This document shows, in pieces, positions 6,997 through 45,219 of a DNA stretch of 64,000 nucleotides (positions within the stretch are counted from its first letter, which is position 1; every line of letters begins with the position of its first letter). The position numbers and the translations under genes are program-made. Source of the stretch: Porodaedalea pini (taxonomy: Eukaryota > Basidiomycota > Agaricomycetes > Hymenochaetales > Hymenochaetaceae); the NCBI GenBank assembly GCA_002794775.1, contig NBAY01000023.1:434001-498000 (forward strand). Direction: 5' to 3'. The notes below the pieces were generated by a model. That model made no database searches. It was not told the DNA's origin and worked only from the letters and a program-made list of their open reading frames with translations.

Positions 6997-7566
6997 CATC
7001 AGGAAAATGGCAAACACTATACACTATTATATGCTACTATATAGCATTTATAGTAGTCCATAGTTGTTTAGTAGTTAATGGTAACCCCCCCTCTATATAG
7101 GACCATATAGTACCATAGTGCTGAATAGGCCATAGCTGTATAGTACCATAGTGCTGAATAGGCCATAGTTGTATATTACATAGCACAGAATAGGCCATAG
7201 AGGGATAGTATTATAGTACTGAATAGCACATAGATTCAAATAGGCCATAATTTCTTAGAGACATATAGCTGCCTATATTGACATAAAGGAGTCTATAGCC
7301 AGGTGACTAGGCAGTGTCATACTTCCTAGGGTATCTCATGACCTCACAATTTTGTTCAGATAGCGGGCAGATTGCAAAAATCATATATTATAATATGCAA
7401 AATACATTGGATCTACTATCCTACTGGTGTAGCCATACACTTCCTCATCAGACTTGCTCCATGATGATGCACGTTAGATACCCACATGTGTCTGCTATGT
7501 TTCTTGATGTCCAACTTCACCTGCTTCCTCTTCGCACCACGGAAGGACTGCGACACATTTGCTGTT
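6997..7566 (+). repeat. Left 570-bp terminal inverted repeat
   Basis: It is the reverse complement of 44651-45219 with few differences. The outer part is AT-rich and carries several copies of GAATAGGCCATAG and TATAGTACCATAGTGCT between about 7100 and 7240, which may be binding sites. The innermost 65 bp (about 7502-7566, minus strand) encode a VLPWCEEEA-like piece of the prolyl-tRNA synthetase C-terminal region, so a host exon remnant forms part of the repeat. Confidence 0.85.
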
Positions 7567-7985
7567 ACGATTACTGAGTTTACGAAGTATCGTTCTTTTG
7601 TTGTGGGCAAAGTTAGGGAGCCCGATTTGGGTTTTTGTCAGCTTTTATAAGCTGATGGCATACCATATATGTTAATTTTGGACCCCTTTTCTGCTAAATT
7701 CGGGCTGTGGCTATGAAGGGTTCACTGCTTTTGTGGCTGTACAGTGCTCACTTTCTTCATTGGCATATTTAATTTTATTCAACCATCAAAATCTCACCCT
7801 TGAACCATGTAAAAAAACTTCAGACAATTCTCTATCTGTCTATGTATTTTTTGTAAAATAAAGTGGCCTGGTTGAATTAAAAATCGGTCGAAAGCAGAGT
7901 TGACGATAGTACTAGTGCCAACAAGTGATCTCCAACCAGCGGGAGGCATGTCGTCGACGAGTCTGTTTCGCTGCAGCAAAGACTC
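7567..7985 (+). repeat. Shared non-coding leader of cassettes A and B (copy A)
   Basis: From about 7590 the sequence is nearly identical to 27798-28175 in direct orientation, ending near the GTCGTCGACGAGTCTGTTT motif where the cassettes diverge. Its first part (7562-7660) is also found at 35511-35607 directly after the PRP8 fragment of cassette B. It contains a short perfect hairpin (7638-7655, TCAGCTT/AAGCTGA). No coding potential is seen. Confidence 0.8.
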
Positions 7986-8177
7986 TCACTTTGCTCCCCC
8001 ATGTGATCCTCAGCGGAGGCACACCTGACCTGACTTGTCTCCTTTACTTTTCTCTTGGGCTTTCTCTGCTTTTTTCTTAATCACACTACATCACTGCTTC
8101 TCATGGTAGCGGCCCCGTCATAGCTGCCTGCCTGCCCACCCGCACTGCTCGAGGCAACAAAGAGGTCGACGACAGCA

Positions 8178-8379
8178 TGGCAAGAGGACCTCCAATCGCT
8201 CATTCATCGCATGAAAGATCGCTTCCTAGATGTCATCTGGGATCTACTGGATGAGGACGCGATGGACGAAGGCAGCAACGTGGACTCGGAGGGTTGGGGA
8301 CATAAAGGTGAGCACGAGCACAGAACCTACCACCTGTCCTTGAGACTGACAAATGCTAGCTATCGTTTATGCTCGCGCT
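8178..8379 (+). pseudogene. BTB/POZ-domain protein fragment, two exons
   Basis: Exon 1 (8178-8307) reads WQEDLQSLIHRMKDRF then LDVIWDLLDED and ends in GWGHK. A 52-bp GTGAGC..TAG intron (8308-8359) follows, and exon 2 continues in frame with AIVYARA. This is the start of the BTB fold as found in many Agaricomycete BTB proteins (FxDVxWxL followed by xWGHKAIxYARAP). The sequence leaves the BTB frame at about 8380 and enters an eIF4G fragment. Only about 50 residues are present, so it is a captured piece, not a gene. The family call rests on the short conserved pattern spanning the intron. Confidence 0.6.
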
Positions 8380-8575
8380 CTTTCTCGTTCTCCTCCTCGC
8401 CGGCGCCTTCCCCACCTCTTGCTAAATCGGAGTCGTGGCCTGTACAGTTGTTCGGCTCCATCAAAGCAACGCAGAGCAGCATGCCGATGACAGCAAAGCC
8501 GTCTCTGGCATCTGCATCTTCCATCTTATCTGCTGCATTGTCGTCTTCTGTGGCATCAGGGTTGAAAACACTACT
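8380..8575 (+). pseudogene. eIF4G N-terminal fragment (cassette A)
   Basis: The segment encodes SPPLAKSESWPVQLFGSI followed by an Ala/Ser-rich tract, and is closely similar to 28497-28680 of cassette B, where it lies in a longer eIF4G N-terminal region. It follows the BTB piece without a gap and changes to an unrelated Ser-rich sequence at about 8576. Assignment is by identity with cassette B. Confidence 0.75.
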
Positions 8576-9708
8576 GAGCGCGATAGCATGAGCACGTTGC
8601 ATTCGCTTCGTACGAGCGTGCTGAACAAGAACCTTGCTCGCAGGAATGCGGCTGTCACCTCGTCTAGCGCATCTGTCCGGAGCGTAGCGCGCAGCGTTGC
8701 GTCGACGACTAGCCGAACGTCATCGCCGCCTTACGACTGCAACGGAGCGTGAGCGTAAGAAGAGCCGGCGAGACTCGAAGTTTGCGCCGTCCACCCCACG
8801 TAGCACGAGTCCAAGCGTCTATAGGGCACCGAGTGCACTCTCGTATACTTCAGGTATGGACGTGGATGGGGAGGGTGACGAACAAGAAAGCCCGCGACTA
8901 AAGGGCTCGACCTCGTCCCTTGCGCGCTCTACCGCATCATCTTCCGTGGTTTCTCGACGGCCCGGTGTAGCTTCTCGTTCTCCGCGCACAACTGGGAAAG
9001 ACGCAGGCGTCACGAGTGTAAAACTACCGAACATCGTCTCCATGCAAAGACCAAAGTCTGTCGCCGCCTCTGTTTCATCTACTCGTTCACATGCATCGAC
9101 TATCCACACAAATGCCGCCACTGCAGGCCAGCAAGGTACTCTTTGTCCACCTCATCCGCCCTCGCGACTGACATCCTCGCTCTCGGATGTGTCAATGTCC
9201 AGCAGCAGGAGCGGGGCTTCAACACGCGAGTCTACATTCAAGACGCGTCGCGAGAACATGACCCACGCGACTCTGTTACTCGGTCGAGGAAAGTCTCGAC
9301 CACGTCAATGACCTCGATGCGCAGCACCGGAACCTCAAGATCTCCTAAAATGCCGGCGCCTGCGCTACTGAAAGGACGGCCGCATCGCGTCTCTGAAACG
9401 AGTGCGGCACCAATAAGTACGGTAAGCGCGGCATCGCGCACATGGAAGGTGTCGCCCACTACTACAGTATCTACGAAAACAACAGCGAACAAGACGTCCA
9501 TCATTCAAAAGTCACCGTCGGCGAATTCAATTCGATCAACTGCATCTGTGGCAACAGCTGGAGGGAAAAAGACAGCGACGAAGAAGTCCCCTGCAGTTGA
9601 TGAGAAGAAGGCTTCTCCGGCGAGGCATCGCGTGCGACTTATGCTTTACTCTAGTACGTGTTTATCCACCTTTAACTCATTGTATGGTCGTTGATTAGTG
9701 TATCTTAG
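8576..9708 (+). pseudogene. Unrecognised Ser/Thr-rich basic protein fragment
   Basis: A low-complexity, Ser-, Thr-, Ala- and Arg-rich coding-like stretch with higher GC than its surroundings. It reads through several frames, for example 8697-9140 with SKFAPSTPRSTSPS and 9240-9650 with KKTATKKSPAVDEKK. GT/AG pairs between the parts suggest introns (GTACTC after 9133 and GTACGG after 9418 are candidate donors). It may be the disordered tail of the BTB protein or another captured gene. No catalytic motif is visible and I do not assign a function. It ends at the RPB1 fragment. Confidence 0.4.
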
Positions 9709-11763
9709 CCTTTCGTCTAAATCTTTCCGTCACTCCACCGTATAATGCCGATTTCGATGGCGATGAGATGAACAAGCAGTATGTCACTTTTAAGATTAGC
9801 CTTACATCTCTTTCTCAGCTCCGTCTAGCGTTTCTCAGAGCGAAGAGACGAGAGCCGAACTCAGTCAAATTGCATAGGTTGCAAAGCAGATCATCTCGCC
9901 GCAGGTGAACAAACCTGTTATGGGCATCGTACAGGACATGTCGTGCGGTGTCCGGAAATTTACTCTGCGGGATAGCTTCCTCGACTGGGTGCAGGTGCAA
10001 AACATCCTGCTCTGGGTGCCGGACTGGGACGGCACGATTCCGACGCCGGCGATCTTAAAGCCGAAGCCATTATGGACGGGCAAACAGATTCTTAGCATGA
10101 CGATTCCTCGCGGAATAAACGCATATCGCTCGCCTGATCCGAAATCTTCGAGCCCCGTTTTCGACGATGGCATGCTCATTGAAAATGGCGAGATCGTCTT
10201 TGGTATCGTGGAGAAAAAGACGGTTGGAGCGTCGCAAGGCGGTCTTATCCACGTCGTCTTCCACGAAAAAGGTCCCAAAGCGACTCGTACGCTGTTCAGT
10301 GGTCTCCAGCAGATTGTTAATTACTGGCTGTTCTACAATGGATTCAGTATAGGCATTGGTGATACAGTCGCGGATAAGAAGACAATGGCGTACATCACGG
10401 AGCAGATCAAGATGCGGAAGCAGAATGTCGTGCAGGCCATTGAAGATGCATCTGACGACTGTCTGAAAGCTGCACCGGGTATGACTATTCGCGAGTCGTT
10501 CGAGAGTCGAGTCGAAGGCGAGCTCAACTTGGCGCGTGACCACTCCGGTGTCAAAGAGATGGTTGTCGCGGGTTCGAAGGGTTCGTTCATTAACATCTCG
10601 CAGATGTCAGTCTGTGTTGGTCAGCAGTCCGTTGAAGGGAAGCGACTCCCGTTCGGCTTCAGACATCGCACACTACCTCACTTTACGAAGGATGACTTCA
10701 GCCCAGAGGTGCGCTGTCAAGACGGCCGAGACTGGTTACATTCATCGTCGACTTGTAAAGGCACTCGAAGACGTGGCTGTCTGCTACGACTGGACTGTAC
10801 GAAACTCACTGGGTGACCTGATCCAATTCGTGTATGGCGAGGATGGTATGGACGGTGCTTTTATTGAACGGCAAACGATCAAAAACGTTCGGTAGCAATG
10901 ATCGCGAGTTCGAACATTGCTATCGGGTCGACGTCACTTTTTCTCACTGGTGCTTTGCAAGCAGTGTTGTCCAATCCCGCGGGGATCCCCGGGGATGGAA
11001 GGGATCCCGCAGGGATCCCGCCGGGATTGATGGGATGGGATGGGAAGAAGCAACGGGATGCAAAGATTAGTAAGCAGTCCCTGCTGACCTCAATAACTGC
11101 TGCTCTCACACGATGATGATGCCACTGTCCCACTGGTGCTGCCTCTGCCACAGATGCGGTGATGAACTCAACTATTGCAACAACTGAGTCCATGCTTTCA
11201 AGTCTCACATGCATTCATGCAGTAAATAGTAATGTATAGCAAAACTTAACTTTATTTGATTATCACACCTGCCATATAAAGGCTCTTAGTCATGTATAAC
11301 CAAACTTCTATGTAGAATTCTACCAAGTTCATTCCCTTTGTCCCCGGGGATGCCATCAATCCCGGCGGGAATCCCGTGTCCCAGCGGGAATGGGAACCAT
11401 CAATTCCCGCCGGGACGACAACACTGTTTGCAAGTCAGTATCAATGACTCATCCCTCGAGCTCCAGCAAAAACTTGACGAGGAATATGACCGTCTTCATG
11501 AGGATCGTAAGTTGCTCCGCGAATTCATTTTCCCGGGCCGCGACAATTCCACTGCCCACTATCTTCTTGTCAACCTGAACCGTATCGTGCAGAACGCAAC
11601 GCAGACTTTCCATATCGACCGTAGAAAACCGAGCGATCTGGAGCCGGTTTACATCATTGAGCAGGTGCAGCAGCTGGCAGACCGCCTCGTCGTTGTGCGC
11701 GGCGATGATCTTTTAATAAAGGAGGCTGCCGAGAACGCTTCTCTTGCATGCCGCTTATCCATC
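9709..11763 (+). pseudogene. RPB1: RNA polymerase II largest subunit (RPB1) fragment
   Basis: The segment encodes the core of the RNA polymerase II largest subunit. NADFDGD, the loop that binds the catalytic magnesium, is intact at 9744-9764. It is followed by the [12 protein letters not shown] region, then 9905-10707 ([60 protein letters not shown]) and 10728-10935 ([41 protein letters not shown]). It resumes at 11427-11763 (SSLELQQKLDEEYDRL, DNSTAHYL, FHIDRRKPSDLEPVYII). Defects are a stop near 9877, loss of about 30 codons at 10707 that removes the start of the bridge-helix region, a frameshift near 10935, and a hAT-type MITE at 10962-11426. Both termini are missing. It is a captured fragment; a functional RPB1 must exist elsewhere. 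Confidence 0.95.
10962..11426. mobile_element. hAT-type MITE with 8-bp target duplication
   Basis: A 465-bp element with termini CAGTGTTGTC and GACAACACTG, flanked by a perfect 8-bp duplication TTTGCAAG (10954-10961 and 11427-11434). The subterminal regions are GC-rich arrays of GGGATCCC and CCCGGCGGGAAT-like motifs that can fold back on each other. Eight-base duplications and CAGTG-type ends are typical of hAT transposons. It has no coding capacity. Removing it and one duplication restores the RPB1 reading frame across the site (FLTGALQVSINDSSLE), which confirms the boundaries. Confidence 0.92.
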
Positions 11764-14335
11764 GCAAGGTATGATCCTTGGGAAAGCTGCGTTACATTAT
11801 TCTGACTTCCAATCCTTCTAGAACTTGAATTACCTTCATCTCGATTACAACATGAATCTGAAGCCGGTGAAGACGCTTACGACGAAGGAACGCAAAAAGT
11901 CTCGCTTTGGAAATGCATTCCGTATGTGCCGTGAAATTCTTCGCCTCACAAAGCTCGTTGTCGATGCGCACGTCCAATTCCGGCTTAGCAATGTGGATGC
12001 CTTCCAACTGGCGGATGCATTGCAGTATATCTTCGCACATATCGGCGCGCTCACCGACATGTACCATTACAAGTACAAGCTTATGCGTCAGGTCCGGATG
12101 TGCAAAGATCACAAGCATCTGATCTATTATTGCTTCAATGTGGGACCTGTTGGTAAGGGCCCAGGCTGTGGGTTTGGGGCTCCAGGTTGGCGAGGGTGGC
12201 TCTTCTTCATGCGTGGAATTGTACCGTTGCTTGAGCACTGGCTCGGAAACTTGCTTGTGTGTCAGTTCGAGGGTCGCAACAGCAAGGGCATCGCAAAGAC
12301 GGTCACGAAGCAGCGTGTTGAATCGCACTATGACTTGGAATTACGCACTGCCGTGATGCACTGTACTCTTGATATGATGCCGGAGTCGATCAAGCAGAAC
12401 AAGGCGAAGACTATCTTGCAGGACTTGTTGGAAGCGTGGCACTGCTGGAAAGGCAAACAGTACGTCGTTTTGTTGAATCTGGACTTTGCGTACTAAGCCT
12501 TATTCTACAGTTCCATGGAAGGTCCCGGAATGCCAACTGCAATCGAGAACATCACCTTGTGGTACATCAAGAGCAAGGCGGACTGGTGATGCTCGATTGC
12601 GCACTACAATCGCGAGCGTATCAGGCATGGTGCGGCTGTCGACAAGGCTGTGGTCAAGAAGAACTTGGGGCGTCTTACTCGACTGTACTTGAAAGCTGAG
12701 CAGGAGCGTCGGCATGCTTACCTCAAAGATGGTCCTTACGTTAGTGCTGAGGAGGCTGTTGCGATCTACACATCGATGGTCCACTGGCTTGAGAGTCGGA
12801 AATTTGCTCCCATCCCATTCTCGTAAGATTCAATTAAATACGTCTTTCAGTAGCTCTCACTGATGTTTCCATACAGTTCCCCTTCGTACAAGCATGACAC
12901 GAAGTTGCTCGTGTTGGCTCTCGAGAAGTTGAAAGAGGCATACAGCGTCAAAGGTCGTCCTAACGAATCTCAGCGTGAGGAGCTTGCTCTCATTGAGCAG
13001 GCGTATGACAATCCACACGAACGTATGTTCCTTTTCTAATTGATCGTAGGGTGTAGCTAATGCAGGTCTGTCTAGGATCAAGCGTCTCTTGCTCACTCAG
13101 CAAGCCTTCAAAGAGGCAGGCATTGAGTTCTTCGACACATATGACAAGTTCATCCCTTGCTACAACATCGAACCCGTTGAGAAGATTACAGACACATATT
13201 TTGACCAGTTCTTATTCTTTGAGGCTGACAAGTGCGGACACTGAACCTCCTCCCCTTTTGGTGTACAAGTGGTGCCAGGGTATCAATAACTTGACGGACA
13301 TCTGGGAGACGAGCGAGGGCGAATGCGTAGTGATGATGGAGACCGTACTTTTGAAGGTCTACGAAAAGATTAAACTGCAACGTGCAAGTGAAATGGCGGG
13401 TCCCCCACGACTGCCCGACAATTTCCTGCAGTACGGTGATTCTGACACCGAGACACGCCATCCAGTCCGTCTCTATTCTCGTTGTGTTGATCGTTTGCAT
13501 ATTTTATTTCGCTTCGCCGCCGAGGAATCACGCGACCTTATACAATGTTACCTCAGCGAGAATCCAGATCCGACAAACAACAACGTTATTGGGTATAACA
13601 ACGAAAGATGTTGGCCGCGGGATTGCCGTATGCGCTTGATGAAGCACGACGTCAATCTAGGTCGAGCTGTGTTCTGGAACGTGAAGCAGATCCTGCGTCG
13701 TTCTTTGACGACGATTGAATGGGAAGATCCGTTTGTTAGTGTCTACTCTAAAAACAACCCTCAGCTACTCTTCTCGATGAGCGGCTTCGAGGTGTGCATT
13801 CTGCCGAAGATCCGGACGATGAGTGGAGAGCAGTTGTCACTCAAGGACGGGGTGTGGAACTTGACCAACGAGCAGTCGAAGGAGCGTACTACGCAAGCCT
13901 TCCTCCGCGTCTCCGATGAAGGTGAGAATATTAAAGCTTCCATGGAATATGTAATGCTGAAGAATTTCATAAGTGTTCAACAGTTTAACAACCGTATCCA
14001 CCAGGTCCTCATGAGCTCAGGCTCTACCGCCTTTTCCAAGATTGTCAACAAATGGAATACGGTCTGATGACTTATTATCAGGAGGCTGTCATCCACACGA
14101 ATGAGCTGCTTGATGCTTTGGTGAAGGCTGAGAACAAAATTCAGACTCAGTGTCGAGATTGGCTTGAACAGTAAGATGCCTTTGTGTTTCCCTCCAGTCG
14201 TCTTCTACATCCTCAAAGTAAGCATCTCAGCTCTTATGTATATCACGTCTTGCTGAACTGTTGTCGTATAGGAACTCGGTGGTCTTGGAATGTTGTCTAT
14301 GAGTCGTGTGCTTATTCCTCAGAGCGATGATGTGC
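11764..14335 (+). pseudogene. PRP8: PRP8 spliceosome core protein fragment (cassette A)
   Basis: PRP8 is the large scaffold of the U5 snRNP at the spliceosome active site. After an intron (11764-11820, GTATGATCC..CTTCTAG) the reading frame gives [57 protein letters not shown] and [17 protein letters not shown], up to about 12464. Further blocks run to [52 protein letters not shown] and ELGGLGMLSMSRVLIPQSD at 14335. Defects include an extra A at the exon end near 12451, stops near 12586, a deletion near 13230, loss of about 180 nt near 13370 relative to cassette B, and a small deletion at 14062. Introns are kept, for example GTACGT..CTACAG ending at about 12510. The 5' part of PRP8 is absent: the fragment is joined to RPB1 at the intron's 5' splice site. 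Confidence 0.95.
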
Positions 14336-14375
14336 TACCTCCCCATCCCTCCTCCTTTACACTGCATGTTGTACA

Positions 14376-15375
14376 TTAAATAATAGCATATAGAGCAATG
14401 ACTGCTGTAGTTTTCCCTTCGCCATGAAGCTCATAATCACTATACTGTGATAGATACTTTTCTGCATTTGAAACTCTGCCAGTGGTTATACCGTCATTAT
14501 ACCAGACCAGTCCAGACTTATCTATTATTCTACAAGTGAAGTGATTGTTACCACCATAAATCAGACCTCGCAATTTGTATTTTTTCAAACATGGTGTACA
14601 TTTTATAACAACCTCATGATCAATTATAATCTCATAATTATACAACTGCACAGCTACAACATTTGTTGACTCACTGATATGAGATTGTACATTGGTGTCA
14701 GCTGTATAATCTATTTGACATTGTCTACATGTTACTGACATTGAACCAAAGTAATAGTTAAGCCATTGTTGAATAGAAGGGTATGTATTGATGTTTTTAT
14801 ATTGACTGCTGAATAAATACCATTTAGGAGCTGTATTAAAGTCTTCTGTAAAACATGGAATAAATGAGGATAGTAAAATACTTTGTTTAGACCTATTACA
14901 TTGAATACACTGGCTTTGCTTATATATTATAGGTTCTTTTGCTTCTAGGCATTTCTACACAACAGAGGCTACAGCTGTTAATTTATGACCTAATGGAAAT
15001 TGATGTCTGTTCTGGTTGAAAAGCTTGTTATGAATGGCATATCTTTCTTCTTCAAAACTACTTATTGAATTCATTACCCTCTGAAAATGATCATGCAAAT
15101 TAATTTGATACTTTGAATATATATTATACCACCTCTCATAGTCTTCTATGTATAAATTGAATAAAATAGGCAATACAGAGTCATAAGCACAACTATAACT
15201 TACTGAATCCCATATTAGTCCTAAAGGTGATGAGCCTGTAATGTTTTGATTATATTCACTTGCTTTATGTCACTTGCTTGGAGTATTCAAGGTAGAGCTT
15301 TCACTATCATTGTCACTATTTCTTTTCCCTAAATATGATGTACTGGCTAATGTGTCACTGGATATTTTAGTTTTA
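14376..15375 (-). pseudogene. UCH-like (C19-type) protease-domain pseudogene
   Basis: Reading right to left: DSVSYSCAYDSVLPILFNLY with a candidate nucleophile Cys at 15189-15191, a helical stretch, a Cys-rich part (SVTCRQCQIDYT near 14725) and GLIYGGNNHFTCRIID with a candidate His at 14541-14543, then VWYNDGITTGR. The Cys..His order and the YGGxxHFT pattern resemble ubiquitin-specific protease folds found in proteins carried by basidiomycete mobile elements. At least two in-frame stops (near 14955 and about 15270) and AT-rich codon use show decay. Its upstream end is interrupted by the MITE half at 15378. The fold assignment is moderate and the role unknown. Confidence 0.5.
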
Positions 15376-15377
15376 TT

Positions 15378-15416
15378 ACTTGAGGCAGTGGGCCATTAGG
15401 ATGGCAAGCTATGATT
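15378..15416 (+). mobile_element. Left half of CTTGAGG MITE split by CACTA insertion
   Basis: ACTTGAGGCAGTGGGCCATT and the following bases match the first 39 bp of the 177-bp MITE at 27620-27797. The match continues after the CACTA element from 25075 (ATTACTGTTTTCTGTG) to about 25108. The MITE was thus the target of the CACTA insertion. Sequence after 25108 no longer matches the 177-bp copies, so this is either a truncated copy or a longer relative with the same ends. Confidence 0.85.
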
Positions 15417-15829
15417 CACTGCGTTTTAGGGGGTCCTTCTGCACCCGTGTGTAGGTGTGTGGTAGGTAATAAATCACATACCTAATCCGGGTTGCATAGT
15501 ATACCCACACCTTTTTGAATCTAGCATATAAAAGTGTGACCAGCACCTACCTACTCCTGCAAGTCTAGTAGATCTAGCACAAAGAATTGTGTAGTTTGCA
15601 TAAATTGCCTATAGATTTTGTACTAGCCAGTGTAGAGAGTCTATGCATATTATGTGTAGACAGGCTAGGCACATGTTTTCAGTTTTCCCAAATTTGGGTT
15701 CAAAACCAGTTTATTTCCTAATTAAGCATACAATTTGTAATGAACCGTGGTCCCGTGACGCGTGCCAACTAGCGCACGACGCGCGCCTCACATACCCCCC
15801 CCCCCCTCACACTCCCCCCACCTGCGCTT

Positions 15830-17409
15830 CATGTCCGACTTGTTCGACCTGTACAACCCCGTGTTCCTTGCCAGGTACCAGTGGTGGAGGGCCCAGAAAA
15901 GCACCAACAGACAGCACAGAAGCTCGCCATTTTTTGACGAGTCGCTCATCAACCCAGAGCTTTGACTACCCACCCCGTCAAGTGAGGTCACCCCACCACC
16001 ATCCGAAAATGCGGAACTTGAAACTTTGAAGGCCCAGGTTGCCACGCTTGTCCAGGAGGTCCATGGATTGAAGCAGGCCATAAATGATGAGGAGAGCAAT
16101 GCGGATGATGAGGGAGATGGTGGCCACAAGCCCAGGAAACAAGCAAAGCATGACCTGATCCTCAGCATCCTGAACAAAGACCTTAGACCAGCTCAGCAAA
16201 GTGCCCACAAGGAAATTAGGGTACGTATCTTAGTTTTTTTTGCTTTTCCATGTGCATATATTTAACTGAACATCAATATAGAGAAAAATGAGACTTGTGA
16301 TGCAAAAACTCACCAAGGGATCGGGTGATGACAAAAATGAGGGAGATGACAATGACAAGGATAGAATTGAGGTGCCTGTCAACGTTGTGTGTTCCTTCAT
16401 GCCAGACTACGGCCGGCCGGCAACATACCATGTAAATCAAGAACTCATTGAGTGGGCTGCCGAGATTGTAGTGCAAAATTATGAGGTATGCAACTCACTA
16501 CTCTCTGATCCTCATGTGACTGTCTTCATCAGTGACGGATTCAGATTCTTTGGCTGACCGTTTCTTCAGAATGCTGATACTGGGAAACTTGCTTGCGAAG
16601 GCCAAGAATTCACCAAGGCGGACTGTCACGCGTTCGCGATGATGACTTTCACAAACCGGAAGCGCAGTGAGGCCAAAAAACAGATCCTGTGAAGGTGAAA
16701 AAAATGCGGCAAGCACCAGTCAAAGCTCTGCCAGAAGCTTTGTAAGCAGGAGGTGAGTGTTCAAATAAACAAATTGCTTACTTTCTGACTGTCCAACCTG
16801 CAGAAGAAGGTCAAGCACATGAAACAGTCGAGCGCATATGATACAAAGTACGGCATTACCTTGCCAGATGAAATATTCCAGACCGACTGCATGACTGAGT
16901 GCGTGAGTGGGCTTGACTCCAAGGATGTCTCAGAGGATGAGGATGAGGATGAGGATGAGACTGAGGCCACCAGACGCGCAAAAAGAGATGAGAAGATGAA
17001 GGAGGTAAGGTCAGAGCACTATGCCATGCTCTCAAAAGCAGCCAACCTTACCACAAAGGACATGATCGAGAAAGTGCCTGTCTGGGAGGAGAAGAAGCTG
17101 GTGTTTCGCTCTACATTGGTGAGTAAAATCAATCGCATGATAAAATAATTACTCACCTAAATAAACAAGCTAACCACCATCTACAAACAACTCGATGAGC
17201 TGGAGCTTGAGAACCGCAAGCATTCTCATGCCATGACTAGGCGCGCGGACCTCAACAACAAGCTCACATGCATCCCACAGTGCAAACGGTGTGTGTTCCT
17301 ATTCATGGTTGATCCTGTTTGGAAGGCAGTCCATGTTGATGACGCTAACAAGACATTCAAGAAACTGGAACTCACTGATCCCGATAACTTCAATCCCGCT
17401 ACTTTCTGA
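15830..17409 (+). pseudogene. CACTA-borne accessory gene, unrecognised
   Basis: A plus-strand spliced gene near the left end of the CACTA element. Parts: 15830-16220 (MSDLFDLYNPVFLARYQWW, a helical coiled-coil-like segment LKAQVATLVQEVHGLKQAI and a basic tail); after a GTACGT..TATAG intron, 16281-16484 (a Lys/Asp-rich linker, then CSFMPDYGRPATYHV); then 16570-16690 (KLACEGQEFTKADCHAFAMM) and a Cys/Lys-rich part; then 16804-17118 with an acidic EDEDEDEDE run; then 17164-17409 ending at TGA. Stops near 15963 and 16690 indicate decay unless removed by splicing. It could be the second, DNA-binding protein of the element, by analogy with other CACTA elements that carry two genes, but this is inference. 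Confidence 0.45.
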
Positions 17410-17850: not shown

Positions 17851-17869
17851 ATCCTATGTGGTGTTTCAT

Positions 17870-30955: not shown

Positions 30956-35510
<4,555 letters not shown>

Positions 35511-35512
<2 letters not shown>

Positions 35513-35607: not shown

Positions 35608-35784
35608 ACTTGAGGTAGTGGGCCATAGGATGGCAAGCTATGACTACTGTTTACTGAATACTAAATAATTCACTAATGAGAATAATGTTTTAGTATAATT
35701 TTCAAGCTTTAGTTCTCATATAAAATAAAAGATACAGAAAACAGTAATCGTAGCTTGCCATCTCAATGGCCCACTACCTCAAGT
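35608..35784 (-). mobile_element. 177-bp CTTGAGG MITE, copy 2 (inverted)
   Basis: Reverse complement of the MITE at 27620-27797 with a few differences. It lies exactly between cassette B and the left palindrome arm. With copy 1 it brackets cassette B in inverted orientation. Confidence 0.88.
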
Positions 35785-36792
35785 GAAGTGTCAGCACGAC
35801 GTCATCCCATTTGGTCACAATGTGCAGGTGAGACATGTACAGTGCTTTTGCGCACTCAAACATCTCCAGTTGGATAGTCTCAAGAAGTGCAGGTATGGCA
35901 ATCTCCAGTTCTACAAGTGCTAGTAGCACTTGAACACCTCAATCATGTCACACAGAAAGTGTTTGCTTCTTCTGGATATCAACTGGACCGAGTTTGAGGC
36001 AAAGTAGCACATTCTAGACAAAAAGCCATTTGTAAGATTACAGGCAAACCAGGGAGCAAGAAATAATATGTTTATACCTTCTGTTCCCAGTCGTTGAACT
36101 TGTAGCCAGGAGTGTAGCCGTCGAGTACATCTGCCTTTGTGTGGATACCAGCTCTCCTGAGTGTCTTCGCGAGCTGCTCCCAGTCATATAATGCCTGCTT
36201 ATTAGTGCGCACAGTGATACTGCAGGGGTCAACAATTGCTTGGACACTCGTGACGCATGATGGGAGAACAAGACCCTGGTTGTTGCTGTGAATCATGACC
36301 ATGACTCTGATGGTGCAGGTGCTTAGGCCCCACAAGTTCTGCCACACAAAATTTGCCACTGTTTGGACCCGTACATTGTGGATCGTCTGGGTCTTCGACC
36401 ATAATTTTAAACATCTCTGGCCGCAAAAAGTTTTGGCCAAGGCAATGTGACGGATGCCACGACTGGTTGTCAGAATGAAGTCTTCCATGGTCGTCATGTA
36501 CAGACCACCAGCAAACTTCTCCTTCTCGGACTTGATGCTGGGGATGGTGGGTATGGCGAGCAGCTCCTCGTACACACACCAATTTAAGCCAAGAATTTCC
36601 TGTACTTCAGTGTCAGCCTCTTTCTTCATGAGATGCACAGTGTGGCCTTCCTGCCATAGGAATTAGCGCGTACAGAGGAATGGCTGGGGGCTCTTGAACT
36701 CCCAGCACACAACACTGTTCACTGGTTGAGCTTGAGGGGGTAGATCATGATAGCTCTTGATCTATTTGGTGTAGTAGAGATACATGGCCGTT
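35785..36792 (-). pseudogene. Prolyl-tRNA synthetase copy 2, 3' part (left arm)
   Basis: Mirror of 43642-44650. Reading leftwards: [50 protein letters not shown]-like parts (with NLWG here), ITVRTNKQALYD, and GYTPGYKFNDWEQK at 36080. It ends at the MITE boundary 35784, losing the last residues that the right arm keeps. It has stops and frame changes like its mirror, with about five amino-acid differences in the 188-residue main frame. Confidence 0.88.
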
Positions 36793-37143
36793 TTTAAGTG
36801 GACATGCAATATGTACGTGGACTCCTTGTGTTTTGTCTGGGCAAGCTCCTGCCTTGCATTTAGGCTCAAGCTGACGTATGGGTCAGGCGTGCCTCCACCA
36901 ATCTTAGTACCTTTCAGGCCGTGCACGGAGTGAATCGTGACCTGCAGCACACTGATAGCGGTGTCAATCAGTGCACCTGAGAGGAGCTGCTCAAGATTGA
37001 GGGTGAAGACTGGCACAAGGAGGGTCAGTGTGTGGTGGTGACAGTGAGGAGTCCAAGATGAGCTCACCATTCGGGTCATACATCATTGGTCCAAGGATAG
37101 AGTGAACCATGTCTCAGATGAAGGCAGACAGACCAGGAATCTA
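36793..37143 (-). pseudogene. Tricalbin-like SMP end + C2 fragment (left arm)
   Basis: Mirror of 43291-43641; see that entry. It differs by one residue (LLSGALIDT here, LLSGAPIDT on the right). Confidence 0.75.
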
Positions 37144-37177
37144 AACTACCGTGTCAATGGAATTGTCGAATTCAATC

Positions 37178-38174
37178 AATAGATCATACCCACAAAGCCA
37201 ACGTCCAGTGGTGCGTCCATGCCTCAACCATTCCAAACCCATGCCACTTCCTATACTTCAACCATATGTCATCCTCTGCCAGTACTTGACGATCGGTGCC
37301 AGTCGTATCATTCTTCCCCTCTATCTGCACTATCTCATGGTCGATCACCCTCACAACACCTTCCACATCCTTCAGGATCTCGTGCTCAAGCTTTTTCCAT
37401 GAGTTGTCCACCCATGCATCCTTGATCACCGCATCTTGCCCATCAAGCACCATCTTGAAGCATCCTGTCCCTCATCCACACACCGACTTCTCAATGTAAA
37501 GCAGCTCTTCGCATTTGTGGCACACACCATTCAGCCAAATATGATAGCCACCCTCCTCCAACTTCTCGATCATCAGACCATATCCCAAACAAATCTCATT
37601 GACAAAGAGTATTCCACAGACGATGTGAATGAGTTTTTCAGGTTCTTGATTGATGTCAAAGCCCTCCATACAAAGCACGCCACTTCGGTCAAAGATGAAG
37701 AAAAACATCATCGAGAACTGGAGAATGGCACCTAGGACAAATCGTCGGTTGTGCTGTGCAGCAAAGACCATGTGAGCACAGTTGAGAAGTTCCCAATACG
37801 CATCCCTCAATGCTTGAGTGGAAGCAGTGAATTTTAATTCAAGCAGTGCACGGACGTCACACCAAGCAGCATCTTCTGATTCAGCCTTGTCCTTGTCAAG
37901 CCTGACACAATCAGGTTTCCAGATGCAGTTGACGGGAGCATCTGCAGGGGCGTGATCCCTGAAGCAAGCAGAGAATATGCATGATTTAGGTGTAGTCCTG
38001 TCGATGCCATACTCTGAGCGAACACTGTCTGCTATTTTGTTGAGAAAATCGGCAACCTGCTCCTCATCCAACTTCCATCAAACAGGCTTCCCATCCACAT
38101 CCATCTTCAACTCCAAAGCCTCCAATTCACTTTCAAATTCCTTCTTACTTGTCCGCCATTTCTCCCAGCATTTT
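37178..38174 (-). pseudogene. FunK1-like kinase N-terminal fragment (left arm)
   Basis: Mirror of 42261-43256; see that entry. Differences in the main 199-residue frame are R for H (DVRALLELKF) and M for N (QFSMMFF). The 1-nt length difference between arms lies just upstream of this frame, within about 38072-38192. Confidence 0.65.
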
Positions 38175-38513
38175 TTTCTGTAGTCAGATGGATTGCTGAG
38201 TTCCTCAAGCTCGGAGCTCCCTCTGAAGATGCATGTCATATCAACCTTGATCAGCACCTATAATACTTGTCAGCACAAAGTGAGGGATTACAGAACAATC
38301 AATGCACATTCATATACCAACCCAGAAAGTCAACCGCTTTCTTCACGCCAACAGCAATCTTCACCGCACCGCCAATCCTCACTTTTCATTGCCTTTTCTT
38401 GGGCAGCAATTGCAGATGTGGGTGCAGCAGGCGCCACAGCATCAATCTTGCTTCCACAAAATCTACCTAGTGAAGCTTGGTCTCCCTGGTTTCATAAGCA
38501 TGCAAGTATGAAG
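38175..38513 (-). pseudogene. Prolyl-tRNA synthetase copy 2, 5' part (left arm)
   Basis: Mirror of 41922-42260; carries the linker with VAPAAPTSAIAA, the VKK-VDF-GWY block and FRGSSELEE before the inserted kinase block. Confidence 0.8.
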
Positions 38514-40002
38514 CAATGTCGGCACGACATCATCCCATTTGGTCATGACGAGCAGGTGAGACATGTACAGTGCCTTCACGTGCTCGAACATCTCCTGTCT
38601 GATAGTCTTGAGAAGTGCAGGTATGGCAGTCTCCTGTTCTGCAAGTACTATTGGTGCCTTTAAGCCCATATCACATTGCACAGAAAGTGTTTGCTTCATC
38701 TGGATGTCAACCAGACCGAGTTCAAGGCAAAGAGGCACACCCTAGACAAAGAGCTATTTAAAAGACCACATGCAAACTGAGAAATAAGGAATAATTGTAT
38801 CTTCACACCTTCTGTTCCCAGTCGTTGAACTTGTAGCCAGGAGTGTAGCCATTGAGTACATCCGCCTTTGCGTGGATACTGGCTCTCCTGAGCATCTTTG
38901 CGAGTCCTCACAGCAGTCATATAGCTCCTGCTTGTTAGTCCACATGGTGATACCACAGGGGACAACAATTGCTTGGACACTCATGACACGTGATGGGAGA
39001 ACAAGACCCTGGTTGTTGCCATGAATCATGACCATGAATCCAATTGTGTGCGTGCTAAGGCCCCATGAGTTCTACCGTGCAAATAATTTGCCACCGTTCA
39101 TACCCATACCCTGCGGATCATCCAGGTCTTCGACCACAATGTTGAACATCTCTGACCATGAGAAGTCTTGTTCAAGGCAATGCGATGTCGCAGCTTGGAT
39201 GCCATGGCCAGTCATCAGAATGAAGCCTTCCACAGTTGTCATGTGAAGACCACCAGAAAACTTCTCCTTCTCAGACTTGATGCCTGGGATGATGGGTACG
39301 GCAAGCAGCTCCTCATACACACGACGATATAAGTCAATAATCTCCCATACTTCAGTGTCGGCCTCCTTTGTGAGATATGCAGTGTGGCCTTCCTGCCATA
39401 GGAATTCGCACATATGGAGGAATGGCTGGGGGCCCTTGAACTTCTGGCACACAACACTGATCCACTGGTTGAGCTTGAGGGGTAGATCACGATAGCTCTT
39501 TATCCATTTGGTGTGGTAGGGATACATGGCCATTTCTGTAGTTGGACAGATTGCTATGGGCTCCTCAAGCTCAGAGCTCCCTCTGAAGATGCATGTCATA
39601 TCGACCTTGATCAGCGCCTATAATACTTGTCAGCACAAAGTGAGGGATTACAGAACAATCAATGTACATTCATATACCAACCCGGAAAGTCAACCTCTTT
39701 CTTCACACCAATAACAATCTTCACCGTGCCGTCAATTCTCCCTTCCTCCTTTCCTCCTTTGTTGCCTTTTTGTGGGCAGCAATTGCAGACATGGGTGCAG
39801 CAGGTGCCACAGCATCGGTCTTGAGTTCCACAAAATCTACCTTGTTAAGCTCGGTCTCCCCAGTTTTGAGAGCATGCAAGTATGAAGCGATTTTGATTCC
39901 AGAGAAGAAGACAGTAGAATGGGAGGTGAGCATGTGTATGGCAAAGGGGGAAGTCGACACTGCAAGTGATGCATCAAGGACCATGACAACCTTTGGAAAC
40001 AT
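38514..40002 (-). pseudogene. Prolyl-tRNA synthetase copy 1 (left arm)
   Basis: Mirror of 40433-41921; see that entry. The central 93- and 149-residue frames are identical between the arms, and the catalytic-core frame differs at two residues. Confidence 0.9.
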
Positions 40003-40207
40003 GTCATGTCAGGTGCTAATAGTTAAACTAGACGAACTTGATCAAAGTGTGTGGACAGATAAAGAGACTGTGCTCATGGGGGTCCTTATCCAACACAAAG
40101 GATTCTTTTAGCAGGTCCGGCAATGCGAGACACAACTCCTTCAAATCCAGCTTTTGCCTAGTGTGCCCAAGTTAGTCTCTGTCTCTTCACATGCGATGAT
40201 GCCAACA

Positions 40208-40227
40208 GGAGCTACCACAGCAGATTT
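40208..40227. other. Palindrome spacer
   Basis: Twenty unpaired bases (GGAGCTACCACAGCAGATTT) between the arms; the arms meet at GATGATGCCAACA / TGTTGGCATCATC. Confidence 0.95.
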
Positions 40228-40432
40228 TGTTGGCATCATCACATGTGAAGAGACAGAGACTAACTTGGGCACACTAGGCAAAAGCTGGATTTGAAGGAGT
40301 TGTGTCTCGCATTGCCGGACCTGCTAAAAGAATCCTTTGTGTTGGATAAGGACCCCCATGAGCACAGTCTCTTTATCTGTCCACACACTTTGATCAAGTT
40401 CGTCTAGTTTAACTATTAGCACCTGACATGAC

Positions 40433-41921
40433 ATGTTTCCAAAGGTTGTCATGGTCCTTGATGCATCACTTGCAGTGTCGACTTCCCCCTTTGCCATACA
40501 CATGCTCACCTCCCATTCTACTGTCTTCTTCTCTGGAATCAAAATCGCTTCATACTTGCATGCTCTCAAAACTGGGGAGACCGAGCTTAACAAGGTAGAT
40601 TTTGTGGAACTCAAGACCGATGCTGTGGCACCTGCTGCACCCATGTCTGCAATTGCTGCCCACAAAAAGGCAACAAAGGAGGAAAGGAGGAAGGGAGAAT
40701 TGACGGCACGGTGAAGATTGTTATTGGTGTGAAGAAAGAGGTTGACTTTCCGGGTTGGTATATGAATGTACATTGATTGTTCTGTAATCCCTCACTTTGT
40801 GCTGACAAGTATTATAGGCGCTGATCAAGGTCGATATGACATGCATCTTCAGAGGGAGCTCTGAGCTTGAGGAGCCCATAGCAATCTGTCCAACTACAGA
40901 AATGGCCATGTATCCCTACCACACCAAATGGATAAAGAGCTATCGTGATCTACCCCTCAAGCTCAACCAGTGGATCAGTGTTGTGTGCCAGAAGTTCAAG
41001 GGCCCCCAGCCATTCCTCCATATGTGCGAATTCCTATGGCAGGAAGGCCACACTGCATATCTCACAAAGGAGGCCGACACTGAAGTATGGGAGATTATTG
41101 ACTTATATCGTCGTGTGTATGAGGAGCTGCTTGCCGTACCCATCATCCCAGGCATCAAGTCTGAGAAGGAGAAGTTTTCTGGTGGTCTTCACATGACAAC
41201 TGTGGAAGGCTTCATTCTGATGACTGGCCATGGCATCCAAGCTGCGACATCGCATTGCCTTGAACAAGACTTCTCATGGTCAGAGATGTTCAACATTGTG
41301 GTCGAAGACCTGGATGATCCGCAGGGTATAGGTATGAACGGTGGCAAATTATTTGCACAGTAGAACTCATGGGGCCTTAGCACGCACACAATTGGATTCA
41401 TGGTCATGATTCATGGCAACAACCAGGGTCTTGTTCTCCCATCACGTGTCATGAGCATCCAAGCAATTGTTGTCCCCTGTAGTATCACCATGTGGACTAA
41501 CAAGCAGGAGCTATATGACTGCTGTGAGGACTCGCAAAGATGCTCAGGAGAGCCAGTATCCACGCAAAGGCGGATGTACTCAATGGCTACACTCCTGGCT
41601 ACAAGTTCAACGACTGGGAACAGAAGGTGTGAAGATACAATTATTCCTTATTTCTCAGTTTGCATGTGGTCTTTTAAATAGCTCTTTGTCTAGGGTGTGC
41701 CTCTTTGCCTTGAACTCAGTCTGGTTGACATCCAGATGAAGCAAACACTTTCTGTGCAATGTGATATGGGCTTAAAGGCACCAATAGTACTTGCAGAACA
41801 GGAGACTGCTGTACCTGCACTTCTCAAGACTATCAGACAGGAGATGTTCGAGCACGTGAAGGCACTGTACATGTCTCACCTGCTCGTCATGACCAAATGG
41901 GATGATGTCGTGCCGACATTG
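40433..41921 (+). pseudogene. Prolyl-tRNA synthetase copy 1 (right arm)
   Basis: Prolyl-tRNA synthetase charges tRNA-Pro. The piece starts near the end of the N-terminal YbaK-like editing domain (KVVMVLDASLAVSTSPFAIH, SGIKIASYLHALKTGETELN, 40436-40610) with the following charged linker. It continues with VIGVKKEVDFPGWY (about 40720) and then lacks the segment up to the motif-2 region. The class II core follows: [78 protein letters not shown] (40848-41363), then NSWGLSTHTIGFMVMIHGNN and QGLVLPSRVMSIQAIV (41364-41510). The anticodon-binding part is frameshifted (41510-41640), then QTLSVQCDMGLKAPI and MTKWDDVVPTL to about 41921. Stops after VH, FAQ and in the C-terminal part show it is dead. The eukaryote-type core fits a fungal cytosolic enzyme. 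Confidence 0.92.
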
Positions 41922-42260
41922 CTTCATACTTGCATGCTTATGAAACCAGGGAGACCAAGCTTCACTAGGTAGATTTTGTGGAAGCAAGATTGATGCTGTG
42001 GCGCCTGCTGCACCCACATCTGCAATTGCTGCCCAAGAAAAGGCAATGAAAAGTGAGGATTGGCGGTGCGGTGAAGATTGCTGTTGGCGTGAAGAAAGCG
42101 GTTGACTTTCTGGGTTGGTATATGAATGTGCATTGATTGTTCTGTAATCCCTCACTTTGTGCTGACAAGTATTATAGGTGCTGATCAAGGTTGATATGAC
42201 ATGCATCTTCAGAGGGAGCTCCGAGCTTGAGGAACTCAGCAATCCATCTGACTACAGAAA
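41922..42260 (+). pseudogene. Prolyl-tRNA synthetase copy 2, 5' part (right arm)
   Basis: Directly follows copy 1 and repeats its linker (GCTGTGGCGCCTGCTGCACC matches copy 1 near 40620), the VDF-GWY block and FRGSSELEE, with frame changes. At ACTACAGAAA (42251-42260) the homology to copy 1 stops, and it resumes at 43642 with CGGCCATGTATCTC.. (copy 1: TGGCCATGTATCCC..). The kinase-C2 block is therefore an insertion in this copy. Confidence 0.85.
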
Positions 42261-43256
42261 AAAATGCTGGGAGAAATGGCGGACAAGTAAGAAGGAATTT
42301 GAAAGTGAATTGGAGGCTTTGAGTTGAAGATGGATGTGGATGGGAAGCCTGTTTGATGGAAGTTGGATGAGGAGCAGGTTGCCGATTTTCTCAACAAAAT
42401 AGCAGACAGTGTTCGCTCAGAGTATGGCATCGACAGGACTACACCTAAATCATGCATATTCTCTGCTTGCTTCAGGGATCACGCCCCTGCAGATGCTCCC
42501 GTCAACTGCATCTGGAAACCTGATTGTGTCAGGCTTGACAAGGACAAGGCTGAATCAGAAGATGCTGCTTGGTGTGACGTCCATGCACTGCTTGAATTAA
42601 AATTCACTGCTTCCACTCAAGCATTGAGGGATGCGTATTGGGAACTTCTCAACTGTGCTCACATGGTCTTTGCTGCACAGCACAACCGACGATTTGTCCT
42701 AGGTGCCATTCTCCAGTTCTCGAACATGTTTTTCTTCATCTTTGACCGAAGTGGCGTGCTTTGTATGGAGGGCTTTGACATCAATCAAGAACCTGAAAAA
42801 CTCATTCACATCGTCTGTGGAATACTCTTTGTCAATGAGATTTGTTTGGGATATGGTCTGATGATCGAGAAGTTGGAGGAGGGTGGCTATCATATTTGGC
42901 TGAATGGTGTGTGCCACAAATGCGAAGAGCTGCTTTACATTGAGAAGTCGGTGTGTGGATGAGGGACAGGATGCTTCAAGATGGTGCTTGATGGGCAAGA
43001 TGCGGTGATCAAGGATGCATGGGTGGACAACTCATGGAAAAAGCTTGAGCACGAGATCCTGAAGGATGTGGAAGGTGTTGTGAGGGTGATCGACCATGAG
43101 ATAGTGCAGATAGAGGGGAAGAATGATACGACTGGCACCGATCGTCAAGTACTGGCAGAGGATGACATATGGTTGAAGTATAGGAAGTGGCATGGGTTTG
43201 GAATGGTTGAGGCATGGACGCACCACTGGACGTTGGCTTTGTGGGTATGATCTATT
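42261..43256 (+). pseudogene. FunK1-like protein kinase N-terminal fragment
   Basis: The main frame (42363-42962) reads LDEEQVADFLNKIADSVRSE, CIWKPDCVRLDKDK, DVHALLELKF, NRRFVLGAILQFSNMFFFIF then DRSGVLCMEGFDINQEPEK. After a stop it continues MVLDGQDAVIKDAWVDNSWK (42981 onward) with LEHEILKDVEGV. This order (a DVxALxEVxx block, an RRFVxxxxx..DRxG strand pair, then a kinase N-lobe with KDxW and a downstream E) is that of fungal-specific FunK1 kinases. The catalytic HRD and DFG parts are absent. The stop at 42961 and the missing C-lobe make it non-functional. Family call is by pattern. Confidence 0.65.
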
Positions 43257-43290
43257 GATTGAATTCGACAATTCCATTGACACAGTAGTT

Positions 43291-43641
43291 TAGATTCCTG
43301 GTCTGTCTGCCTTCATCTGAGACATGGTTCACTCTATCCTTGGACCAATGATGTATGACCCGAATGGTGAGCTCATCTTGGACTCCTCACTGTCACCACC
43401 ACACACTGACCCTCCTTGTGCCAGTCTTCACCCTCAATCTTGAGCAGCTCCTCTCAGGTGCACCGATTGACACCGCTATCAGTGTGCTGCAGGTCACGAT
43501 TCACTCCGTGCACGGCCTGAAAGGTACTAAGATTGGTGGAGGCACGCCTGACCCATACGTCAGCTTGAGCCTAAATGCAAGGCAGGAGCTTGCCCAGACA
43601 AAACACAAGGAGTCCACGTACATATTGCATGTCCACTTAAA
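43291..43641 (+). pseudogene. Tricalbin-like SMP end + C2 domain fragment
   Basis: Tricalbins tether the ER to the plasma membrane. The piece has IPGLSAFI, a stop, then DMVHSILGPMMYDPN, which is the end of the lipid-transfer SMP domain. A phase-1 intron (43367-43424, GTGAGC..CCAG) is followed in frame by VFTLNLEQLLSG and the C2 domain start VLQVTIHSVHGLKGTKIGGG then TPDPYVSLSLNARQELAQTK, including the Asp of a calcium-binding loop. The C2 domain breaks after KESTY and runs into the prolyl-tRNA synthetase piece. The correctly phased intron shows capture from genomic DNA. Confidence 0.78.
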
Positions 43642-44712
43642 AACGGCCATGTATCTCTACTACACCAAATAGATCAAGAGCTATCATGATCTACCCCCTC
43701 AAGCTCAACCAGTGAACAGTGTTGTGTGCTGGGAGTTCAAGAGCCCCCAGCCATTCCTCTGTACGCGCTAATTCCTATGGCAGGAAGGCCACACTGTGCA
43801 TCTCATGAAGAAAGAGGCTGACACTGAAGTACAGGAAATTCTTGGCTTAAATTGGTGTGTGTACGAGGAGCTGCTCGCCATACCCGCCATCCCCAGCATC
43901 AAGTCCGAGAAGGAGAAGTTTGCTGGTGGTCTGTACATGACGACCATGGAAGACTTCATTCCGACAACCGGTCGTGGCATCCGTCACATTGCCTTGGCCA
44001 AAACTTTTTGCGGCCAGAGATGTTTAAAATTATGGTCGAAGACCCAGACGATCCACAATGTACGGGTCCAAACAGTGGCAAATTTTGTGTGGCAGAACTC
44101 GTGGGGCCTAAGCACCTGCACCATCAGAGTCATGGTCATGATTCACAGCAACAACCAGGGTCTTGTTCTCCCATCATGCGTCACGAGTGTCCAAGCAATT
44201 GTTGACCCCTGCAGTATCACTGTGCGCACTAATAAGCAGGCATTATATGACTGGGAGCAGCTCGCGAAGACACTCAGGAGAGCTGGTATCCACGCAAAGG
44301 CAGATGTACTCGACGGCTACACTCCTGGCTACAAGTTCAACGACTGGGAACAGAAGGTATAAACATATTATTTCTTGCTCCCCGGTTTGCCTGTAATCTT
44401 ACAAATGGCTTTTTGTCCAGAATGTGCTACTTTGCCTCAAACTCAGTCCAGTTGATATCCAGAAGAAGCAAACACTTTCTGTGTGACATGATTGAGGTGT
44501 TCAAGTGCTACTAGCACTCGTAGAACTGGAGATTGCCATACCTGCACTTCTCGAGACTATCCAACTGGAGATGTTCGAGTGCGCAAAAGCACTGTACATG
44601 TCTCACCTGTGCATCATTGACCAAATGGGATGACATCATGCTGACACTTCACAGCAAATGTGTTGCAGTCCTTCCATGGTGCGAAGAGGAAGCAGGTGAA
44701 GTTGGACATCAA
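43642..44712 (+). pseudogene. Prolyl-tRNA synthetase copy 2, 3' part (right arm)
   Basis: Resumes with AMYLYYTK, a stop, IKSYHDLP, then [20 protein letters not shown] (43771-43830), [40 protein letters not shown], and a full-frame anticodon-binding start (LAKTLRRAGIHAKADVLDGY, GYKFNDWEQK, to 44359). After an intron-like GTATAA..TAG it gives the QTLSV-like part with frame changes, then MTKWDDxM.TL, and SKCVAVLPWCEEEAGEV inside the TIR (44654-44704). It is more complete in the anticodon-binding part than copy 1. Stops and frameshifts remain. Confidence 0.9.
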
Positions 44713-45219
44713 GAAACATAGCAGACACATGTGGGTATCTAACGTGCATCATCATGGAGCAAGTCTGATGAGGAAGTGTATGGCTACACCAGTAGGATAG
44801 TAGATCCAATGTATTTTGCATATTATAATATATGATTTTTGCAATCTGCCCACTATCTGAACAAAATTGTGAGGTCATGAGATACCCTAGGAAGTATGAC
44901 ACTGCCTAGTCACCTGGCTATAGACTCCTTTATGTCAATATAGGCAGCTATATGTCTCTAAGAAATTATGGCCTATTTGAATCTATGTGCTATTCAGTAC
45001 TATAATACTATCCCTCTATGGCCTATTCTGTGCTATGTAATATACAACTATGGCCTATTCAGCACTATGGTACTATACAGCTATGGCCTATTCAGCACTA
45101 TGGTACTATATGGTCCTATATAGAGGGGGGGTTACCATTAACTACTAAACAACTATGGACTACTATAAATGCTATATAGTAGCATATAATAGTGTATAGT
45201 GTTTGCCATTTTCCTGATG
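44651..45219 (-). repeat. Right 569-bp terminal inverted repeat
   Basis: Reverse complement of 6997-7566. Its inner 60 bp are the end of the adjacent prolyl-tRNA synthetase fragment, and its outer part is the AT-rich subterminal repeat region. The outer end is CCATTTTCCTGATG. Confidence 0.85.

Follow-up and report, generated by a model that had tools for sequence, protein, structure and literature searches.

Is a long interval that is bounded by inverted repeats and crowded with pieces of core genes a single gene-capturing transposon? The question is raised by a locus of the basidiomycete Porodaedalea pini (GenBank assembly GCA_002794775.1, contig NBAY01000023.1, forward-strand positions 434,001 to 498,000). 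This whole stretch of 64,000 nucleotides is called the window here, and coordinates without a contig label are positions within it. A preliminary description, made from the letters of the window, had taken positions 6997-45219 for one 38-kb element bounded by terminal inverted repeats (TIRs). We searched the host assembly (53.27 Mb in 201 contigs, labelled C12, C17 and so on) and conclude that the interval is very probably a nest of class II elements and not one element. Its parts are two half-copies of a dispersed Plavaka-like element (element A), Helitron-like pieces (element B), miniature inverted-repeat transposable elements (MITEs) and a CACTA-type element (element C). It is the more likely reading that at least two families in this nest carry copied pieces of essential genes, which they have spread to many places in the genome.

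The bounding repeats are two copies of one end of a dispersed element

The inverted repeat itself is real. Its two arms, 6997-7565 on the + strand and 44651-45219 on the − strand, match over 569 bp with 3 mismatches (99.5% identity), far beyond chance. The left arm opens with the terminus CATCAGGAAAATGGCAAACAC, and the right arm was placed by repeat and terminus matches. Both arms are end1 of element A, whose length is 5-6.5 kb. Genome-wide, the terminus pattern CATCAGGAAAANNGCAAA occurs 52 times exactly, the two termini in the window included, and 11 times with one mismatch; a reversed control of this pattern gave 0 matches in the same genome. A search with the 569-bp repeat, in which 40 of 50 candidates were scored, yielded at least 41 scored matches in the assembly, 16 of them full length including the two in the window. 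Past base 569, 15 of the 16 full-length ends (14 outside the window plus the right window copy) run into the sequence seen at 35783. Only the left window copy departs from this pattern, and a Helitron-like piece (B1) starts there. The repeat length of 569 is thus not part of the design of element A, because it marks the place where B1 begins. TIRs of 569 bp were likewise rejected as a feature of element A, since end1 and end2 of a normal copy have only some 21 bp in common.

We next compared the window pair with other copies by a test for target-site duplications (TSDs), which took in 12 of the 14 pairs of neighbouring, convergent termini that lie elsewhere in the genome; the other two are in C25 (57 kb, one end a 102-bp remnant) and C8 (94 kb, one-mismatch terminus). 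In all 12 tested pairs the 2-bp flanks were identical (AT, CT, AA, AT, TT, CA, TA, CA, TA, TT, AA and CA) and one end was of each type, end1 with end2; two of the pairs have one end carrying a mismatch. The 12 pairs amount to 11 independent sites, because the C24 and C71 copies share both flanks. The C129 and C138 copies share one flank, and from these two cases we conclude that some copies are segmental duplicates. The tested copies span 5.1 to 25.7 kb, the less interrupted ones 5.1-6.5 kb. In the window, by contrast, both ends are end1 (..GGCAAACACTAT), flanked by TA on one side and CA on the other, so that no TSD is present.

The flanks tell against a single element as well. Both derive from a host repeat, F, which has 30 near-full matches in the genome, window included. 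The left part of F (5500-6996, + strand) is colinear with the right flank in C110 and C4, and the right part (45220-45989, + strand) takes F up again 1,237 bp beyond the point where the left part stops. Bases 101-1337 of F (C110 numbering) are therefore absent between flanks that are otherwise colinear in F; in C105 and C3, F runs unbroken through the right-hand site. The interval thus has neither the duplication nor the uninterrupted target expected of one 38-kb element.

Three observations that had been proposed as support for mobility were nevertheless made: other genomic copies of the repeat (the 52 exact termini), an empty site, found for the C61 copy beside the C69 copy, and a sister copy with other cargo, in C45. 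They hold for the family of element A and not for the 38-kb interval as a unit. All 12 TSD-bounded copies match the window from end1 into an arm bearing pieces of prolyl-tRNA synthetase (ProRS), those in C21 and C31 with interruptions. The copies in C69, C19 and C61 also align with the kinase-bearing arm, and in the C45 copy eIF4G (MIF4G) adjoins ProRS-like sequence. The cargo of element A thus comprises ProRS pieces with either a fungal kinase with C2 domain or eIF4G. Such a non-autonomous TIR element with host gene DNA is of the Pack type. Inserted Pogo/Tc1-like transposase open reading frames (ORFs) were noted by eye in the C21 copy (L022:2996-4951).

Element A as a proposed Pack-Plavaka element

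The preliminary description had left the class of the outer repeat open. PlavakaB, of the CMCT clade, is described as having termini 5'-CATCA..TGATG-3' and TSDs of 2 or 3 bp (Kojima 2025, PMC12730594). Element A has CATCA..TGATG termini, and the duplications of all 12 tested pairs, though not the flanks of the window pair, are of this size. The same genome holds a Plavaka-domain element with such ends: in C17, positions 22252-30402 carry a Plavaka domain (49 bits) between CATCAGGAAAA ends, which read CATCAGGAAAAAGGCC and CATCAGGAAAAAGTTG, with a CA/CA TSD. A Plavaka transposase in C40 is oriented toward a terminus that resembles the end2 region of element A, with 77% identity over its last 364 bp; the nearest named proteins to this transposase are from Schizopora, Rickenella and Phellopilus. 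With the Plavaka transposase model, 64 stretches of the genome reach E ≤ 0.001, a part of them under the curated cut-off. On the basis of its ends and 2-bp TSDs, the C17 element and the C40 terminus, the most fitting name for element A is Pack-Plavaka, and a PlavakaB-like class can be proposed for the outer repeat. It differs from PlavakaB in that it carries host-gene pieces and that no transposase was found in it: none was seen by eye in the ORFs of four copies (C69, C45 and parts of C24 and C21); one of these ORFs was also run against Pfam, as were the window arms. A Plavaka (PlavakaB) transposase would then move element A in trans.

Decayed ORFs at 54334-58352 (+ strand) resemble a Plavaka-type transposase by eye, and a relative of 54837-55740 also interrupts repeat F in C4.

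The two half-copies form a palindrome

Self-comparison of the window revealed a near-perfect palindrome of 8.87 kb (35783-44652) and several hairpin-like repeats. The preliminary description had noted neither this palindrome nor two features treated below, the doubled PRP8-bearing unit and element C. The left arm of the palindrome (35783-40230, + strand) holds ProRS pieces, a C2 domain and a fungal kinase, all read on the − strand; the right arm, also placed by self-comparison, occupies 40231-44652 (− strand). At the centre (40208-40230), with a TGT microhomology at the turn, the sequence ..GCAGATTTTGT of element A runs into its reverse at TGTTGGCATC; 3 bases are shared and the spacer is about 20 nt. 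Two inverted half-copies of element A are thus joined into a palindrome of some 10 kb, and in A the two points of fusion are separated by about 20-23 nt. Among the 9 loci with this sequence, the window alone has the palindrome turn.

Between the two arms there are 33 differences, of which 29 are transitions, 2 are transversions and 2 are gaps. Eighteen of the transitions are CG versus TG/CA, 8 fall within TG/CA double changes and 3 are of other kinds; within the arm, G follows 9% of the C and 32% of the T. Judged from sequence, these differences match what two real copies would show if they had aged by decay of methylated CpG. The palindrome could have started from two nearby inverted insertions of element A, or from one aberrant end-joining transposition; a fold-back or microhomology fusion would then have followed, with loss of both end2 halves. 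Two insertions with loss of the middle and a single aberrant end-joining with fold-back both fit the data.

A Helitron-like family carries RPB1, PRP8 and eIF4G

Between bases 569 and 570 of element A lies a block of 28.2 kb composed of Helitron-like pieces, MITEs and element C, whose contents would have arrived after A. The RPB1, PRP8 and eIF4G pieces of the window sit on the Helitron-like pieces within the split A, which is a further departure from a single element. B1 (7566-15377, + strand), with a hairpin-bearing terminus at 7566, carries RPB1 and PRP8; B2 (27799-35513, + strand) carries eIF4G and PRP8, joined at 30957/30958; and the terminus of a third, truncated copy follows at 35514-35606 (+ strand). 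In the self-comparison these appear as two copies of a PRP8-bearing unit 19.7 kb apart.

The family is widely dispersed. The front part of B1 is present at at least 40 loci (40 of 284 candidates scored), and the PRP8 piece likewise at at least 40 (40 of 106 candidates scored), including two in the window and C12. All nine aligned B copies (the window and eight others) begin at the same base, next to T, and their flanks differ, save those of C54 and C128, which are shared. The B terminus folds into a hairpin. Beside B copies we found PIF1 helicase (PF05970) in C37 (4.4e-29) and C79 (3.5e-28), and in C79 also Helitron_like_N (PF14214, 8.4e-30). This stretch, which supplies the RepHel (HUH Rep and PIF1 helicase) expected of a Helitron, is common to C37, C79 and in part C5 (C5 versus C37, 99%), and would lie within the bounds of element B. 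No RepHel was found in the window, whose B copies are truncated. A Helitron-like class can be proposed for the carrier of RPB1 and PRP8. PlavakaA (TGT..ACA) was also considered for element B and rejected, as the bases preceding TACG vary. In C79 (L076:6117-7094) a CNOT1 CAF1-binding domain (8.5e-90), from another core gene, lies beside B-type RPB1 pieces.

The preliminary description had listed RPB1, PRP8, eIF4G, prolyl-tRNA synthetase, G-beta, tricalbin, a FunK1-type kinase and a BTB protein as cargo. Pfam and PDB searches, the former taking in 33 of the ORFs of the interval (10 + 6 + 8 + 9), bore out five of these. On B1, a fragment of RPB1 domains 3-4 lies at 9878-10813 (+ strand; Pfam 6e-47 and 4e-25, PDB phmmer 4.7e-116), followed by a PRP8 fragment with PROCN at 11822-12493 (+ strand; Pfam 4.7e-114) and a further one reaching to U5 snRNA-binding site 2 at 13057-14064 (+ strand; Pfam), in which an intron is apparently read in frame, as judged by eye. 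On B2, eIF4G fragments span 29689-30957 (+ strand), with PF12152 at 29689-30153 (5.9e-11) and a tblastn match with the C45 copy of element A at 30598-30953; the PRP8 fragment follows at 30958-35513 (+ strand), placed by alignment to the gene in C12, with PROCN at 31492-32178 (PDB search, 2.7e-115). More PRP8 stretches occur elsewhere in the interval. In the palindrome, ProRS was recognized at 39075-39617 (PDB search, 5.1e-55), an anticodon-binding match at 36075-36662 (Pfam, 21.3 bits, cut-off 21) and the FunK1-type kinase at 37475-38077 and 37187-37471 (Pfam). A C2 domain at 36765-37082 falls just below the Pfam cut-off (21.8 versus 22 bits); as a sequence match it is compatible with tricalbin. 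G-beta and BTB did not stand: neither had a match in the 33 ORFs scanned, a regex search across the entire window gave nothing either, and the sole WD-like match is weak and lies outside the interval (61586-61879). The gene pieces examined give no sign of an intact protein and would be passengers. What had been said of Pack-type elements with captured host-gene pieces fused into chimeras is thus upheld, and the capture is broader than first thought.

PRP8 was captured at the DNA level

The apparent parent gene of the PRP8 pieces, to judge by its sequence, is in C12 (641-651 kb), where long open frames run along PRP8 and the best domain IV match is free of stops; of the three C12 stretches of domain IV, another contains a TAA, which may belong to an intron. 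Three copies were aligned to this gene, with identities of 94.6% (B1), 95.7% (B2, measured over 30958-34164) and 96.5% (C42); the B2 fragment is without two stretches of the C12 gene. By eye, all three copies retain intron sequence of the C12 gene, for instance GTAAGC after ..FYTPK of the PRP8 protein. Since the copies keep intron sequence, PRP8 was captured as DNA.

A protein search with the eIF4G-PRP8 ORF returned PRP8 fragments among the 120 of 242 matches listed, where the nearest named PRP8 protein is from Fomitopsis. The matches listed also include short PROCN proteins (P0014, P0034, P0070 and P0120) on Fomitopsis, Pisolithus and Paxillus contigs; going by sequence, these may be similar captures in other basidiomycetes.

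Element C, MITEs and neighbouring repeats

CACTA/EnSpm elements have CACTA-type ends and 3-bp TSDs. Element C (15417-25074, + strand, 9,658 bp) shares these features, with CACTG ends, the TIR CACTGYGTTTTAGGGGGTCC and the TSD ATT (15414-15416 and 25075-25077); it differs in that no transposase was identified, the part of the ORFs in 15417-25074 scanned with Pfam giving no match to a CACTA transposase. Its end is present at 5 loci, window included. At 15417 element C splits a MITE in B1, the left part of which is at 15378-15416 (+ strand; in C75, too, a MITE sits here); the right part begins at 25075, and its end was not found. Inside element C are a palindromic repeat, P (20065-20921, with a half-copy at 45540-45987), a 1.1-kb unit (17898-18984) with 24 other matches at 88-91%, and an HSP70 match below threshold at 18927-19205 (20.1 versus 20.6 bits). 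Two further MITEs lie on the + strand at 27618-27798 (palindromic, beginning ACTTGAGG, from self-comparison) and at 35607-35782, the latter abutting element A. Outside the interval, a 1.0-kb inverted repeat (4349-5339 and 53037-54037, 91%) brackets the whole nest and probably consists of two copies of another repeat, and a DUF6698 match lies close to the right-hand limit of the window (63031-63384; 24.4 bits, cut-off 23.7).

Alternative explanations

The interval could still have moved, or be able to move, as a single 38-kb composite (macro)transposon, with two outward-facing end1 termini mobilizing all that lies between. Both termini are intact over their first 18 bases and face outward, both flanks come from the same repeat family F, and the TA and CA flanks are one transition apart, which later mutation could explain. 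As they stand, however, these flanks are no TSD, the same end is used twice where every tested pair has one of each type, and an insertion would have left F uninterrupted on either side, yet 1,237 bp of it are gone. The insertions of B, a MITE and C, moreover, separately explain much of the inner 28 kb. We regard such a composite as improbable. The palindrome, and with it the paired ends, could also be an artefact of assembly, left by a chimeric fold-back read or by repeats that were joined wrongly; this seems to us no more probable than the composite. Such an artefact would account for a near-perfect palindrome with a short spacer at this locus only among the 9, but two arms separated by 33 differences, with 18 of the 29 transitions being CG versus TG/CA, are hard to reconcile with it, as are outer flanks that are colinear in F; systematic base-calling errors at methylated sites could also yield such arm differences. 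That the locus is instead a graveyard, in which host fragments were duplicated by recombination and transposons inserted around them, is hardly credible. The flanks shared by C24 and C71, and by C129 and C138, do point to duplication, but every one of the TSD-bounded copies, from 11 independent sites, has ProRS-bearing sequence after end1, the B copies have exactly the same terminus amid different flanks, and TSD-bounded copies with the same cargo were found at unrelated sites.

Several observations weigh against the nest of Plavaka-like, Helitron-like and CACTA-type elements that we prefer. All the evidence comes from one assembly, and the palindrome is known from that assembly alone. It is conceivable that the F flanks stem from two different F copies, and within the 28-kb block the order of insertion can be read for two steps only, the MITE into B1 and C into that MITE. 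As regards the class of element A, the window has no Plavaka match at E ≤ 0.001 (one Pfam match of 12.9 bits, E 0.064, lies at 55947-56321), Ty3-type retroelement ORFs lie between the C40 transposase and its right end, the left end of the C40 element was not found, and neither was a complete autonomous element with exactly the two ends of A in the genome. As regards element B, canonical Helitrons have a 3' CTRR end and insert at A^T, and the B terminus reads ..ATCGTA with A as the next base; its other end was not found, a regex for the reversed terminus being empty in five stretches. Because the canonical CTRR end is lacking, we file element B as Helitron-like only.

Discussion

The nest reading implies that an inverted pair of ends can pass for one giant transposon, and that tests for the same end and for a TSD discriminate between the two. 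It also suggests that in a fungus Plavaka-like elements serve as vehicles of the Pack type. Core genes are found on two carriers that are unrelated, eIF4G on both, and a bias in capture is therefore testable. One conceivable basis for such a bias is that Plavaka-like and Helitron-like groups converged on pieces of indispensable genes that are long and expressed constitutively (RPB1, PRP8, eIF4G, ProRS and perhaps CNOT1) since this cargo shields them. If so, an attack on the element by small RNAs or methylation would fall on an essential host gene as well, and silencing would be selected against. The CpG content of the B2 PRP8 piece is close to normal (0.96, versus 1.01 in C12), which fits this idea, and the strong depletion in the arm of element A (0.42) speaks against it for A; on balance we think it quite improbable.

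Among known systems, the Helitrons of Pleurotus ostreatus are likewise Helitron-like with RepHel in a basidiomycete and are said not to tend toward host-gene capture (PMC4289320); the B family differs in carrying RPB1, PRP8 and eIF4G, with CNOT1 nearby in C79. In the parts of the open literature consulted, with subscription papers outside its scope, no gene-capturing Plavaka was found besides those with TET/JBP genes (PMC12730594). Pack-type capture is already known, and its occurrence with core genes in Plavaka-like elements looks new. Plant Pack-TYPE elements and Pack-MULEs (PMC8903248) are likewise non-autonomous TIR elements with DNA copies of host-gene pieces; element A differs in belonging to a Plavaka-like superfamily, in residing in a fungus and in drawing its cargo from core information-processing genes. 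The hAT-borne amplification of histone H3 in Pseudocercospora fijiensis (PMC6710886) is likewise a housekeeping gene captured and amplified in a fungus, whereas here several genes are involved, as gene pieces, on two unrelated carriers.

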